Origin: Cryomorphaceae bacterium BACL29 MAG-121220-bin8
GTDB taxonomy: Bacteria > Bacteroidota > Bacteroidia > Flavobacteriales > Flavobacteriaceae
Length of the DNA: 64,000 bases
Direction of reading: 5' to 3'
NCBI GenBank assembly: GCA_905181705.1
Contig: CAJIYP010000003.1
Span: forward strand, 496,001 to 560,000
The position numbers and the translations under genes were made by a program. Each line of letters begins with the position of its first letter. Position 1 is the first letter of the stretch. This document shows positions 9,695-19,882 of this stretch, piece after piece. The notes under the pieces were generated by a model. The model ran no database searches. It was not told where the DNA came from and saw nothing but the letters and a program-made list of their open reading frames with translations.

Positions 9695-11092
9695 TCAAAT
9701 TATAATTTTAAGAGGTTTTGTTTTTATCCAATTCCCTCTGGTAAAATCGGGGAATTGTTGAGGCATTCCTTCTTCTGATATAGATTTTCCACTTAATGGG
9801 GTAACTGCACTCCAATAACATCCCTCGTATACATTTTGATCTAAAGGCAATCCGTTTCTAAGACATTCAACTATTCTGTATCTCATGATTCCATCCATTC
9901 CTCCATGACCACTATTTTTAGTCTTCTGATTTAATCTTTTATATAATGGATGGTCATATTTTTCATATAATTTTTCTAATCCATCTCCTTGTATCCATGA
10001 ATGATGATCTTTTACAACGTCTAAAAACCCTTCCTCCAAAGCAACCCTCGTGGGAAAACCAGCTAAAGTTCCTTTTGTTCCTTGAACAAGGTTATGTCTA
10101 GTATACGGCCTAGGACTAGTTTCGTCCCATTGTATCATAAGGGTTCTGCCTAAATTAGTTTTAACAATGGAAGTGTTTAAATCTCCATTTTGATAATTTA
10201 ATTTATTCCATTTATGATTAAGGGGGTAATTTTTTTCAGCATATAATTTTCTTCCCATTGATGGTGTGGAATAGGAAACTATACTTTTAAAATTATCTTC
10301 TTTTCTTCCTAAGTTCATGTACTGTGCGACAGGTCCAAGTCCGTGGGTAGGATATAAATTTCCTTTACCATCTGCATAATGATGTGTTCGCCAAGATCCA
10401 GTTCCTCTTTCTTCTTGATTCATTTGAAATCTAAGTTCGTGAATATAAGCAGCTTCAGCATGGAGCAAATCTCCTATTACCCCTTTTCTACACATATTAA
10501 GGTACATTAATTCGTCTCTGCCATAATTAACATTTTCCATCATCATGCAATGCTTTTGGGTTTCCTCAGAAGTATTGATAATTTTCCACATGTCTTTCAT
10601 GGTTACAGCAATTGGTACCTCAACAAAAGCGTGAGATCCATTCTCCATAGAATGAATAGCCATTGGAGCATGATTATCCCAATTTGTAGAAATAAATACT
10701 GCATCAGGCCTAACATCTTTAAGCATTAATTTCCACTTATCATCCTCTCCCCAATATTGAGCAATGTTATTGTGTCTCTCGCCTTTACCTATTTCCTTTG
10801 CCAGAACGGAACTAGCCAATACATTATCTTGAAATAAGTCACTAATTGCTACAACTTCTACACCATCTAATTTTGCAATTGAACTTAAATGTCCGCTTCC
10901 TCTTGCACCAACTCCAATAAATGCTATTCTAACAGTTTCTAGTTTTGGAGCAGAAAAACCTCCCATATATTTACCATTCGAATCTGGAATCGATATTGAA
11001 CTGTCACAATTTGTTAAACTAGAAGCAGCCGTAAATGCTGCAGCAGAAATTGCTGTTGTTTTTAGAAATTTTCTTCTATTATAATTTTTCAT
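9695..11092 (-). CDS. GH109-type NAD-dependent N-acetylhexosaminidase (Gfo/Idh/MocA fold), Tat lipoprotein-like
   Basis: Protein of 465 residues. The start at 11092 begins MKNYNRRKFLKTTAIS, a twin-arginine signal followed by a lipobox-like LTNC (Cys29), so it may be a Tat-exported lipoprotein. GVGARG at 60-65 binds NAD. It shows the specific signature of glycoside hydrolase family 109: the EVP triplet near 158-160, MMENVNYGRDELMYLN, GSWRTHH, GNLYPTHGLGP (His250), HNLVQGTKG, GHGGMDG and the ending FPDFTRGNW. These enzymes remove alpha-N-acetylgalactosamine (some act on GlcNAc) by transient C3 oxidation. Its ATG overlaps the GH20 stop (ATGA), implying translational coupling. Confidence 0.88.
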   Translation of the reverse strand: MKNYNRRKFLKTTAISAAAFTAASSLTNCDSSISIPDSNGKYMGGFSAPKLETVRIAFIGVGARGSGHLSSIAKLDGVEVVAISDLFQDNVLASSVLAKEIGKGERHNNIAQYWGEDDKWKLMLKDVRPDAVFISTNWDNHAPMAIHSMENGSHAFVEVPIAVTMKDMWKIINTSEETQKHCMMMENVNYGRDELMYLNMCRKGVIGDLLHAEAAYIHELRFQMNQEERGTGSWRTHHYADGKGNLYPTHGLGPVAQYMNLGRKEDNFKSIVSYSTPSMGRKLYAEKNYPLNHKWNKLNYQNGDLNTSIVKTNLGRTLMIQWDETSPRPYTRHNLVQGTKGTLAGFPTRVALEEGFLDVVKDHHSWIQGDGLEKLYEKYDHPLYKRLNQKTKNSGHGGMDGIMRYRIVECLRNGLPLDQNVYEGCYWSAVTPLSGKSISEEGMPQQFPDFTRGNWIKTKPLKIII

Positions 11093-13155
11093 AAAATATC
11101 TTTGTAATTCTTTTTTATCTTTTCTAAAAAATAAATTTCTGAAAAAAATTGCCAATCAAAATTTATTGTTTGATTAGCAGGATGGTTGTGTTTGTCTTGA
11201 TCTAAAATATAATTTTCTGGCTTATTTAAAATTCTAGTTTTAGAGTAAACTTCTTCAAAATTAATCCTTAGAGAATTAAAGTTATTTTCAAATTTTCTAA
11301 CTTCATTAAGTGCTGTTTTTTCATAATCTAAATCAGATGAAACATCTAGTTTTTCTAAAGCAATTATAATATTTGAAGAAAATTTTACCAATTCATTAAC
11401 TTGTTTATAAATTTCTAAAGTGTATGTATTTTTTGGATCATTTTGCATTAGCTTTTCAATAGTTTCATCAACTTCTTTACTAATTAAAAGTGAAGCTCTT
11501 GCATTTTCAATTTTATTAAAATATTTTTTAGACCACATTCCTTTATTTTCTAAATCAGGCAAATCAATAATAAATGTTTCCAATGGATTTTCTTCTTTTG
11601 ATATCGCAGCTCTTCTTACTTTTTCTTCCAATAACATATTGAGCCATAAACTTACAGGCTTTTCGAGTTTGTCAATAAATGCAAATTCATTATTTGAAAA
11701 TTCAGGGCCAAATCCCCTGTGCCTATAAATAGTTTTAAATTCTTCAATAGTTGTTTTGTTTCCCGACCAAGTGTATTGTGCAAAAGCAGCAATACCTCTT
11801 TTATATAATTCAAAGTGCGGAGAATCATCATCCCAAAGAGTCAAAAGCAATCCCTCTAAGTTCTTTTCTATTGATGATATAGCAAAAGATTTAATTTGAG
11901 GAATATTACTCTGATTTTGAGGCATTAGGGTCCATCTAGTTTGACCAGCTGTGGCCCCCATTACTTTAAGATTATTTTTTGTGTACCAATCCATGGCTTT
12001 TTGATTGCCGTAAGTTTCAGATTTTTGGTAGTTCCACCTCATGTAAACTGCATTTTTTGGAAACTTTTCTATAAACTGCATTAAGTTTAATTCATTTTTT
12101 TTCCATATTTCATCTACTTTTTCCTCACTTATCTCACTATTAAACATAGGCCTATAAACACCTGCATGTTTTAATGGCATGTCATCCCAAAAAATGGGAA
12201 TTCTGTTGTGTTTTTTAGCAAACTCACAAACTTTATTTAACCAAATTAGATTTAGTTCTAATTCACTTTTACCATCTCTTTTTAATAAATGAACTTCATC
12301 TCCACCTACATGCAAATATTTTCCATATGGTGTAGCTTTAATAGCATCTAAATATAGATCAAATTGTAAATCATAAGTTTCTGAATTTAATGGGTTAAAA
12401 GCCCAATCACTGTCAGGATTGTCTCTTAAATATTTGTTTTTTTCGTGCTTTAAAATAAAGGAAGCATGACCCAAACCCTGCACAAGAGGATTAATCATAA
12501 TGTTTCTTTTATTTGCATATTCACTTATTTCAATCCACCATTTAATTGGCAGTGCATCTGAAGCTCCAACTTCAGGTCTTAGTTCATATTTTAATTTATC
12601 CTCAAATTCAACAATAATTCCATTGATTTTTTGTTTAGCTAAATCATCTATTAAATTGAAATAATAGGATTTTTTCTCCATATGATGCTTAATATCTATA
12701 TGAATAGGACGAAATTTAAGTGAAGGAAAATCTTTAATGGAAACCAATGGAAGGTTTATGTTTTGATCTTTACTGTCTTCAATCAATAGATCTAGAGTGA
12801 CAAACGCATAAAACAATCCTTTTTCATCTTTAGCAACAATGGATATTTTATTTTTAGTAATATTTAACTCATATCCCTCGTCAATTAAGTCTAAAGCAGG
12901 ATTTATTGAATAATTAATTACTGCATCACTAAAATTATTTGTTTGAATATGATTTGTAAAATGGTATCTTATTGGAAGTTGAATGTTGTTTTCAGAATAA
13001 GCATAATTAATATTTTTAAAATTTAGATTTGAATATCCATTATCAAACTTTATTTCTTGTAATGAAGGTAATATTTTGAAATATTTTGAAATGTCTTTGT
13101 CATTTGAACAACTAACAAAGATTATAGAAATTAAAAGAGCTAGAATATTTCTCAT
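11089..13155 (-). CDS. Glycoside hydrolase family 20 beta-N-acetylhexosaminidase-like lipoprotein
   Basis: Exported enzyme of 688 residues; the start gives a lipoprotein signal (MRNILALLISIIFVSC). A GH20b domain (about 30-145, including DEGYELNIT and KGLFYAFVTLDLLIE) precedes the catalytic barrel, which begins around SLKFRPIHIDIK. The Asp-Glu catalytic pair is D286-E287 in LHVGGDEVH. The C-terminal 200 residues are an extra helical region, as in larger family members. GH20 enzymes release terminal beta-GlcNAc or beta-GalNAc by substrate-assisted catalysis. It is the first gene of the minus-strand operon; a TAttTTTG-like -10 box lies at 13169-13176. Family is clear, exact specificity is not. 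Confidence 0.85.
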   Translation of the reverse strand: MRNILALLISIIFVSCSNDKDISKYFKILPSLQEIKFDNGYSNLNFKNINYAYSENNIQLPIRYHFTNHIQTNNFSDAVINYSINPALDLIDEGYELNITKNKISIVAKDEKGLFYAFVTLDLLIEDSKDQNINLPLVSIKDFPSLKFRPIHIDIKHHMEKKSYYFNLIDDLAKQKINGIIVEFEDKLKYELRPEVGASDALPIKWWIEISEYANKRNIMINPLVQGLGHASFILKHEKNKYLRDNPDSDWAFNPLNSETYDLQFDLYLDAIKATPYGKYLHVGGDEVHLLKRDGKSELELNLIWLNKVCEFAKKHNRIPIFWDDMPLKHAGVYRPMFNSEISEEKVDEIWKKNELNLMQFIEKFPKNAVYMRWNYQKSETYGNQKAMDWYTKNNLKVMGATAGQTRWTLMPQNQSNIPQIKSFAISSIEKNLEGLLLTLWDDDSPHFELYKRGIAAFAQYTWSGNKTTIEEFKTIYRHRGFGPEFSNNEFAFIDKLEKPVSLWLNMLLEEKVRRAAISKEENPLETFIIDLPDLENKGMWSKKYFNKIENARASLLISKEVDETIEKLMQNDPKNTYTLEIYKQVNELVKFSSNIIIALEKLDVSSDLDYEKTALNEVRKFENNFNSLRINFEEVYSKTRILNKPENYILDQDKHNHPANQTINFDWQFFSEIYFLEKIKKNYKDIL

Positions 13156-13168
13156 CTCTCTAATTTAA

Positions 13169-13176
13169 CAAAAATA
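13169..13176 (-). promoter_or_regulatory. Possible -7 element for the glycan operon
   Basis: On the minus strand this reads TATTTTTG, matching the Bacteroidota -7 consensus TAnnTTTG, 13 bases before the GH20 ATG. A TTG lies upstream but with a 15-base spacer instead of the usual 19, so the -33 part is poor. The short leader would be unusual but not unknown in this phylum. Confidence 0.3.
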
Positions 13177-13230
13177 TGAATTGACTTACAGCAATTATTA
13201 ATAAAGCTTTTATTTATATATTTATACATC

Positions 13231-14718
13231 ATGTATAAAAAAATTAAATATCTGAATTTTAAATTTACTTATTTACCATTAATTACCATCATACTTTTTA
13301 TTTCATTTATATCTGTAAAAAACTCCAATTTAAATAATCCTATTACTAAAAAAAACCTTCCAAATTTTGTCATAATTTTTACAGATGATTTAGGTTATGG
13401 AGATTTGGGTAGTTATGGTAATCCTACTATTAAGACACCTCACTTAGATAAAATGGCAAGCGAGGGTCAAAAATGGACTCAATTTTATGTCGCTGACCCT
13501 GTATGCACGCCAAGTAGAGCAGGACTTTTAACTGGAAGATATCCTATAAGAAATGGAATGACCTCAAAAAAAAGAGCGGTTCTATTTCCAGATTCTAATA
13601 AAGGTTTGCCTAGTTCAGAAATAACAATAGCAGAAGTTTTAAAACAAAAAAACTATAATACTGCTATGATTGGTAAATGGCATTTAGGCCACTTAAAAGA
13701 TTTCTTGCCTGGTAATCATGGATTTGATTATTATTATGGTATCCCTTATTCAAATGATATGGATAAAGTGAAAGGCTCAAATGATTATAAAAAATTTATT
13801 GAAGATCCTAACTGGGTCGCAGACACAAAAGACTACAACGTTCCTTTAATAGAAAATTATAAAGAAATTGAAAGACCTGTTGATCAATTTTCCATTACTA
13901 AAAGATATAATGAAAAATCAATTGAGTTTATAAAACAAAACAAAAAAGGACCTTTTTTCTTGTATTTGGCTCATTCTCTTCCTCATATTCCACTTTTTGC
14001 TGATCCTAAAAAAATAGGATCTTCTAAAAGAGGGATATATGGAGATGTTATCGAAGAAATAGATTGGAGTGTTGGGAGAATAATTCAAACTCTAAAAGAT
14101 TTGAAAATTGATGACAATACAATTGTACTATTTACATCTGATAACGGACCTTGGCTTAGTTTCAAAACACATGGGGGATCTGCAGGACCATTAAGAGCAG
14201 GGAAAGGAACTACTTTTGAGGGTGGACAAAGAGTCCCTGCTATTTTTTGGGGACCTGGATATATAAAACAAAAGGTTGTGTCAGGTTTAGGCTCAACTCT
14301 GGATATAATCAACACTTTTGCAGCATTATCAAATACCGAAATTCCTAATGATAGAAAAATGGATGGATATGATTTAAGTAAAGTTCTTACCACAGGTGAA
14401 AAAAGTCCTAGAAATGAATTTTACTATTGGACTAGAGCATCTTTAAACGCCGTAAGAGTTGACAAGTGGAAATTACATATCAAACAACTTGATAAAATAA
14501 ATTATTCTTTACCCTATGTTTTGGAAAGCCCAGAACTGTATGATATTGAGTCTGATGTTTCTGAAGCCTATGATATTGCCTATAAACATTCTGAAACTGT
14601 AAGTAAACTCAAAAAAAAATTACAAAATCACCTGTCTGACACTTCGAATAGTTTGCCAGACAACTTAGTTTCTAGAATTCCTAAAAACTCCATTTTTCAT
14701 CCGGATAACATTAATTAA
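13231..14718 (+). CDS. Sulfatase (arylsulfatase family S1)
   Basis: Predicted periplasmic sulfate ester hydrolase of 495 residues. An N-terminal hydrophobic segment (about 15-29) is a signal or anchor. Metal-binding IIFTDDLGYGDLGSYG follows at about 47-62. The cysteine that must be converted to formylglycine is C92 in VCTPSRAGLLTGRYP, a textbook CxPSR site. GKWHLGH and LFTSDNGPW supply further active-site residues. It is divergent from the nine-gene glycan operon, so the two probably share control. Its maturase is not obvious: the SUMF1 protein at 4567 lacks the needed cysteines, so a true FGE or anSME must be elsewhere in the genome. Confidence 0.92.
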   Translation: MYKKIKYLNFKFTYLPLITIILFISFISVKNSNLNNPITKKNLPNFVIIFTDDLGYGDLGSYGNPTIKTPHLDKMASEGQKWTQFYVADPVCTPSRAGLLTGRYPIRNGMTSKKRAVLFPDSNKGLPSSEITIAEVLKQKNYNTAMIGKWHLGHLKDFLPGNHGFDYYYGIPYSNDMDKVKGSNDYKKFIEDPNWVADTKDYNVPLIENYKEIERPVDQFSITKRYNEKSIEFIKQNKKGPFFLYLAHSLPHIPLFADPKKIGSSKRGIYGDVIEEIDWSVGRIIQTLKDLKIDDNTIVLFTSDNGPWLSFKTHGGSAGPLRAGKGTTFEGGQRVPAIFWGPGYIKQKVVSGLGSTLDIINTFAALSNTEIPNDRKMDGYDLSKVLTTGEKSPRNEFYYWTRASLNAVRVDKWKLHIKQLDKINYSLPYVLESPELYDIESDVSEAYDIAYKHSETVSKLKKKLQNHLSDTSNSLPDNLVSRIPKNSIFHPDNIN

Positions 14719-14734
14719 AATCTTTTTGTAAAAC

Positions 14735-14763
14735 AAAAAAAGCTCCCCATTTTCAGGAAAGCT
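14735..14763 (-). terminator. Rho-independent terminator of the candidate small RNA
   Basis: Eight-pair stem AGCTTTCC/GGGGAGCT (two G-U pairs) with a 7-base loop and a run of seven U on the minus strand. The plus-strand reading lacks a U run, so it does not serve the sulfatase gene. Confidence 0.65.
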
Positions 14764-14812
14764 CTTCATCGGTTTTCTACAAACCTCCTGCATTATGCAG
14801 GTAACACAACAA
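14735..14812 (-). ncRNA. Candidate small structured RNA, three hairpins with own terminator
   Basis: On the minus strand the stretch folds into three consecutive hairpins: CCTGC-ATAAT-GCAGG (14801-14787), GGTTT-GTAGA-AAACC (14785-14771) and AGCTTTCC-TGAAAAT-GGGGAGCT (14763-14741) followed by a U7 run ending at 14735. A -7-like TATATTTG at 14823-14816 would start a transcript near 14810, giving an RNA of about 75 bases. It lies just beyond the tRNA-Asp terminator on the same strand and contains no credible reading frame. I do not recognise the family; a comparison with Rfam Bacteroidota motifs such as Flavo-1 would be the test. Confidence 0.5.
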
Positions 14813-14815
14813 TTG

Positions 14816-14823
14816 CAAATATA
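14816..14823 (-). promoter_or_regulatory. Probable -7 element (TATATTTG) of the candidate small RNA
   Basis: Minus strand TATATTTG is a perfect match to the Bacteroidota TAnnTTTG box and lies 15 bases before the first hairpin. A TTG at the ideal 19-base distance is missing, because that position falls in the neighbouring terminator stem. Confidence 0.4.
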
Positions 14824-14841
14824 GGCTATTGTTAATTAAAT

Positions 14842-14870
14842 AAAAAACCCTCCTAATTGGAGGGTTTTTT
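14842..14870 (-). terminator. Rho-independent terminator after tRNA-Asp (bidirectional)
   Basis: Near-perfect palindrome: ACCCTCC and GGAGGGT separated by five bases, flanked by A6 on one side and T6 on the other. It begins 2 bases after the tRNA-Asp gene on the minus strand; the plus-strand form could also stop transcripts from the sulfatase side. Confidence 0.85.
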
Positions 14871-14871
14871 G

Positions 14872-14945
14872 CGGTCTGGACGGGACTCGAACCCGCGACC
14901 CCCTGCGTGACAGGCAGGTATTCTAACCAGCTGAACTACCAGACC
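14872..14945 (-). tRNA. tRNA-Asp (GTC)
   Basis: Complete cloverleaf of 74 bases without encoded CCA. Acceptor GGTCTGG pairs with CCAGACC, the discriminator is G as expected for Asp, the anticodon stem CCTGC/GCAGG encloses CTGTCAC (anticodon GTC), and the T loop reads TTCGAGT. A consensus promoter lies upstream and a strong terminator directly downstream, so it is a single-gene unit. Confidence 0.97.
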
Positions 14946-19836: not shown

Positions 19837-19882
19837 CACCTCATTAATAACCAAGGTTTAGGACCTTATAAATTAATTTGAT

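Follow-up and report, generated by a model that had tools for sequence, protein, structure and literature searches.

Does the DNA that follows an aspartate transfer RNA (tRNA-Asp) gene in a flavobacterial genome hold an RNA gene of its own or only the tail of the tRNA transcript, and what might such an RNA do? The locus lies on the minus strand of a 64,000-nucleotide stretch of Cryomorphaceae bacterium BACL29 MAG-121220-bin8 (Flavobacteriaceae; contig CAJIYP010000003.1, positions 496,001 to 560,000), which we call the window and to which the coordinates below refer unless another locus is named. An initial annotation read the locus as a small RNA with its own promoter-like box and terminator, an interpretation that is supported by our comparisons of related sequences. 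We find that this very probably is a genuine gene for a small RNA of about 76 bases with three hairpins, present in most sampled Flavobacteriaceae and not represented in Rfam. The fuller statement, that the locus encodes an independently transcribed, structured non-coding RNA of about 76-80 nucleotides (nt) that is family-wide, is not matched by Rfam 15 and acts in trans as a regulator, seems to us likely, and our confidence in the RNA gene itself is higher.

The predicted RNA would start at or just before GUUGUGUU, fold into three hairpins and end at a U-run. The consensus of the Bacteroidetes -7 element is TAnnTTTG, and a box of this type, TATATTTG, can be read at 14816-14823, separated by five bases from the unpaired 5´ motif GUUGUGUU (DNA letters GTTGTGTT; 14803-14810, with GTTGTGT at 14810-14804). 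Transcription probably starts at about 14811-14810. The body of the RNA, defined by fold, covariation and a match to covariance model R2 (82 bits, the window copy being a member of the model's seed), covers 76 nt from 14810 to 14735, close to the 75 bases first estimated. Hairpin 1 (14787-14801) consists of six CCTGCA/TGCAGG pairs, 14801-14796 with 14792-14787, one more than originally counted, while the lengths of five and eight given for the other stems were right: hairpin 2 (14771-14785) pairs GGTTT with AAACC, 14785-14781 with 14775-14771, and stem 3 joins AGCTTTCC and GGGGAGCT, 14763-14756 with 14748-14741, two of its eight pairs being G-U. Hairpin 3, whose 5´ strand is AGCUUUCC, and a run of seven T residues at 14741-14735 make up a putative intrinsic terminator (14735-14763). 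The -7-like box, the series of hairpins and the U7 tail of the initial annotation can thus all be read directly in the sequence, and its description of a gap without a reading frame is correct in substance, with one mechanical frame of 42 amino acids spanning 14665-14793.

The evidence that the RNA is structured comes from its fold and from the way its stems change. The minimum-energy fold of the window copy contains the three hairpins, with 12 pairs in the third, at -27.1 kcal/mol, with a z score of -4.5, and none of 200 dinucleotide shuffles folds as well. An alignment of 101 distinct sequences, fitted to model R1, contains 360 double-changed cells compared with 101 after shuffling, has a covariation score of 0.533 compared with 0.189, and has standard pairs in 95.4% of pair cells compared with 77.0%; shifting the pairing partners by 1-3 columns reduces the paired cells to 46-55%. 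Changes on both sides occur at all six pairs of hairpin 1, in 44-57 of the 101 sequences per pair, and at four of the five pairs of hairpin 2, where 97.8% of cells are paired. Because this alignment was fitted to the model, and hence leans toward its structure, the weight falls on a seed alignment and on an alignment-free check. The seed alignment was made with MAFFT and its structure named from the alignment itself; double-changed cells number 23 compared with 8.6 in shuffles, and the covariation score is 0.275 compared with 0.195. For the alignment-free check we drew on 153 distinct copies, which remained after identical sequences were dropped from the best 66 of 80 and the best 92 of 109 model matches (at least 38.8 bits), and could parse 147 of them. 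The stretch from motif to terminator is more stable than its own shuffles in all 147, with a mean z of -4.3 and every parsed copy below -1; two hairpins stand between motif and terminator in 130, and the 5´ strand of the first stem occurs in 119 distinct versions. As judged from these comparisons, stem 1 varies in sequence and remains paired, as expected of a structured RNA family. Compensatory change and conservation in relatives, whose absence was named at the outset as speaking against a small RNA, were both found, the former in stem 1 and the latter across the family.

How widely the RNA occurs was assessed in several ways. BLAST found it in 17 of the 22 genomes of the window's genus, the window's own included; the five misses are genomes that are 62-86% complete, so absence there cannot be concluded. 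(BLAST matches up to an expect value, E, of 1 were mostly terminator fragments and were left out of the counts.) A covariance model built from 19 sequences, the window copy among them, detected the RNA at E ≤ 0.001 in 222 of 299 sampled Flavobacteriaceae genomes, representing 183 of 236 genera, though the E-values are rough and the lowest-scoring family matches are not all secure. In one large genus, very probably Flavobacterium, the model finds 192 of 199 sampled genomes, including all 167 that are near-complete. Most family genomes have one match, and some have two to five; one locus (L074, 1450-2154, plus strand) has one clear and three weaker matches in a row. A pattern scan returned at least 120 stretches, mainly from Flavobacterium and also from Myroides, Paenimyroides, Sinomicrobium and some metagenome bins with other labels. 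Two contigs binned under Candidatus Nitrotoga and Bifidobacterium breve (L160 and L268) carry a small RNA of the Flavobacterium type, and are probably mis-binned flavobacterial contigs.

The initial annotation did not recognize the family, and Rfam 15 likewise gave no match above gathering thresholds on the window small RNA or on the small RNA in 20 other loci. With a permissive threshold, all matches on the window stretch fell far below their gathering scores. The GibS family (RF04182) had no match at its gathering score of 115; its 15.9-bit match at 14836-14870 falls on the tRNA-Asp terminator, not on the small RNA. Flavo-1 (RF01705), likewise an RNA motif of Flavobacteria, does not match the small RNA of the window or of the 20 other loci, and in one locus (L152) it stands apart, at 118-196, from the small RNA at 2338-2395.

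Two parts of the RNA appear to be constrained in sequence and not just in structure. GTTGTGT forms the 5´ end of 139 of the 153 distinct copies. In hairpin 3, the 5´ strand AGCUUUCC varies little, whereas variation in the 3´ strand consists of switches between G-U and A-U pairs. One pair retains its 5´ U even though the opposite base does not pair with it in 24 of the 101 aligned sequences, and in 24 of 100 in a second parse (100 of 102 copies) whose search pattern itself selects GCTT, so that the conservation of the GCTT letters rests on the 101-sequence alignment. Since this U is kept without pairing, base pairing is not a sufficient cause, and the AGCUUUCC strand probably has a second role, which may be target pairing or protein binding. 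We propose that the RNA may be a trans-acting, base-pairing regulator, in which the exposed 5´ GUUGUGUU, the constrained NAUGARRAGCUUUCC (the linker and the ascending strand of hairpin 3), or both would pair with targets, and hairpins 1 and 2 would serve mainly as scaffold or stabilizer. One of these two modes resembles that of the Bacteroides small RNAs FopS and GibS, which are described as acting through seed pairing; in FopS the seed lies at the 5´ end (PMC11697453). These RNAs resemble ours in belonging to a multicopy small RNA family of Bacteroidota and in having a terminator hairpin and a 5´ stretch that is conserved and unpaired; the build described for FopS is a different one, whereas the RNA here has three hairpins and mostly one match per genome (PMC11697453).

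The relationship of the RNA to tRNA-Asp takes two forms. In the window, tRNA-Asp(GTC) lies upstream on the same strand (14871-14945 by ARAGORN; Rfam tRNA match 14872-14945), followed by a terminator-like hairpin, ACCCTCC/GGAGGGT and a T-run, at about 14841-14866. Each of the 17 genus copies found has TATATTTG at a distance of 4-5 nt upstream of GTTGTG, irrespective of whether tRNA-Asp lies 60 nt or about 10 kilobases (kb) away, so the independence of the small RNA from tRNA-Asp is well supported by sequence in the window's genus, where the box would drive its transcription. Across the 153 copies, tRNA-Asp is upstream on the same strand in 72, within 110 nt in 68, and no other tRNA was found in this position. 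A run of at least five T residues separates the two in 40 of the 68 linked copies and is absent from 28. The TAnnTTTG box is missing from 65 of these 68; it occurs within 30 nt in three, which is the chance level, and all three are from the window's genus with equal spacing. By contrast, of the 81 copies whose upstream flank lacks tRNA-Asp, 49 have a box within 30 nt, compared with 2.0 expected, and in 45 it is placed precisely 3-6 nt before the motif. These 81 are defined by a flank of at most about 1.5 kb per copy (shorter than 1.4 kb in six, and than 110 nt in two of these), so that a tRNA-Asp farther off was scored as none, as is the case for several genus copies. The independence observed in the window's genus does not, as far as sequence tells, extend to most tRNA-linked relatives. 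Many of these probably depend on the tRNA-Asp transcription unit, and the linked copies without a box may well be tails of the tRNA-Asp transcript. The initial claim that the RNA is not such a tail holds for the genus and does not hold in general. Two routes would lead to the same 5´ end: a promoter belonging to the RNA itself and, presumably, readthrough from the tRNA-Asp unit followed by processing.

Several observations concern the neighborhood of tRNA-Asp. In seven of the 81 copies (L089, L274, L283, L290, L300, L331 and L335), a truncated tRNA-Asp 3´ end lies just upstream with no whole tRNA-Asp; such remnants are expected after partial duplication or after site-specific integration into the tRNA. 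In nine genus relatives (L361-L369), a thioredoxin gene, identified by eye, precedes tRNA-Asp and the small RNA follows about 0.1 to 10 kb past it, with a variable gene set between. Judged by eye, this variable island holds up to about eight genes.

Could the element be nothing but a tRNA-Asp trailer with a terminator, with no function of its own? The 68 closely linked copies, the lack of any other upstream tRNA and the 28 linked copies with no intervening T-run would fit such a trailer. However, tRNA-Asp is absent from the flank of 81 of the 153 copies, 45 of which have the precisely spaced box; in the window, a terminator-like hairpin follows tRNA-Asp and the small RNA has a conserved box; and conservation extends to the 5´ motif and to hairpins 1 and 2, none of which a terminator requires. 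We consider a bare trailer very improbable. E. coli has a small RNA of trailer origin, 3´ETS-leuZ, derived from sequence behind a tRNA. The RNA described here differs in having a conserved fold of its own, a terminator and, in many genomes, its own promoter-like box. A short peptide gene starting at an NTG codon (ATG, GTG or TTG) in the linker could be imagined, given that such a codon precedes GCTT in 152 of the 153 copies. The frames it opens scatter from 4 to 73 codons, 134 of the 152 run beyond the modelled end of the RNA, and they are not conserved in relatives; a conserved peptide from this codon was excluded, and we give a short peptide gene there hardly any credence.

A regulatory RNA with another name or another mode of action deserves more weight. 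The literature searched yielded one strong candidate, the Flavobacterium psychrophilum small RNA Rfp18. It is reported to be needed for precise metalloprotease expression, two metalloprotease mRNAs depending on it for their normal levels in stationary phase; it is strongly folded and widely conserved in Flavobacterium, F. columnare expresses a homolog, and its third stem-loop is the predicted pairing region. Rfp11, 13, 15 and 18 are named together as RNAs that fold strongly and are conserved in other species (PMC9723704). Comparison by description places both RNAs across Flavobacterium (192 of 199 genomes for ours), each with a strong fold and a notable third stem-loop, which in ours carries the extra sequence constraint. 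Unlike Rfp18 as described there, the RNA here ranges beyond Flavobacterium and in many genomes lies beside tRNA-Asp. Homology to Rfp18, which is compatible with our preferred explanation, is a real possibility that falls somewhat short of an even chance: the small RNA gives no consistent pairing signal at 29 Reprolysin_4 genes, and the RNA classes described for F. psychrophilum leave room for another Rfp or for a product of partial termination (PMC9723704). If the two are homologous, the known range of a described RNA would grow from a single genus to a large part of the family. The RNA might instead act as decoy or partner of one conserved protein, for example an RRM-type RNA-binding protein, or of another RNA, and not as an antisense regulator of many mRNAs. 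The exposed 5´ motif, kept in 139 copies, is easier to reconcile with a single conserved partner than with mRNA targets that change, the target tests at Reprolysin_4 genes and gene starts gave no consistent signal, and RbpB of Bacteroides, in binding noncoding RNAs, reportedly prefers their single-stranded regions. No candidate protein or RNA partner was identified, however, and complementarity to ribosomal RNA (rRNA) is not beyond shuffles in Watson-Crick runs; we regard this mode as unlikely.

Returning to a trans-acting, base-pairing RNA as the preferred explanation, a number of results weigh against it. Two of the five covariation measures of the seed alignment do not exceed the shuffled values (4 compared with 4.0 for pairs with double changes, and 14 compared with 16.1 for further pair types). 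The model found no match in 77 of the 299 family genomes, with filters that lose weak matches, and at E ≤ 0.001 it also yields chance-looking terminator matches outside the family, in 12 and 10 genomes in two scans. These score 29.6-42.2 bits, and none of the 13 and none of the 10 loci starts at GTTGTGTT; given the lack of the 5´ motif at the match, they were taken as chance terminators and presence outside Flavobacteriaceae was rejected. Against three segments of the RNA, 29 Flavobacterium Reprolysin_4 upstream regions showed no consistent pairing (mean z 0.16, -0.09 and 0.10), in a test that covers one protease family and the 29 usable loci of 30, themselves part of a longer match list. One lone outlier among the 29 (L408, genome G604) pairs with the 5´ end of the small RNA at z -4.8 and -14.4 kcal/mol. 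Complementary 7-mers showed no clear enrichment at 546 Flavobacterium gene starts, which were guessed from open frames, making the target tests weak. Watson-Crick runs to the rRNA operons of three genomes were within the range of shuffles.

Further candidate functions were rejected. With G-U pairs allowed, the linker and stem-3 segment forms a 13-base run in two of the three genomes, equalled by 0-3 of 20 shuffles; pairing with rRNA through this run was dropped, since the site (placed by eye) lies past the rRNA genes, in a terminator-like hairpin, and not in rRNA. In the window, the gene order is DNA polymerase III alpha, thioredoxin (by Pfam), tRNA-Asp and the small RNA, and the next gene past it is a convergent sulfatase (Pfam PF00884), which rules out a cis-acting leader of a downstream gene for the window copy. 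A small GIY-YIG-like nuclease gene, recognized by motif and by eye, lies about 110 nt downstream of the small RNA in four loci (L394 of genome G217, L326, L336 and L350), and in L394 and L336 the RNA and nuclease form a unit in tandem repeat. As a general partner gene, GIY-YIG was rejected, since a home-made motif finds it beside just 4 of the 153 copies.

Elsewhere in the window, the sulfatase (PF00884) and a glycosyl hydrolase family 20 gene occupy 11089-14718, adjoining the small RNA, and an S16-Flavobacteria ribosomal protein leader lies on the plus strand at 19843-19877 (Rfam match, 39.2 bits; gathering score 35.7).

The Flavobacteriaceae have been called understudied (PMC9723704). Post-transcriptional control in particular has been little studied in this family of major polysaccharide degraders, which includes fish pathogens. 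An RNA that is near-universal in sampled Flavobacterium and present in most sampled genera is a strong core-regulator candidate that would be simple to test, being one gene with predicted ends and defined, conserved motifs. More tentatively, the RNA may be a core Flavobacteriaceae riboregulator outside Rfam that was anciently coupled to tRNA-Asp, with many lineages relying on readthrough only and others having a separate promoter that leads to the identical 5´ motif; this is a possible history, and one we hold with some doubt. If it is true, the level of the small RNA in the readthrough lineages would report tRNA-Asp transcription, and thus the growth or stringent state of the cell. The two promoter architectures make it possible to test directly if a regulator can be carried along by tRNA transcription.
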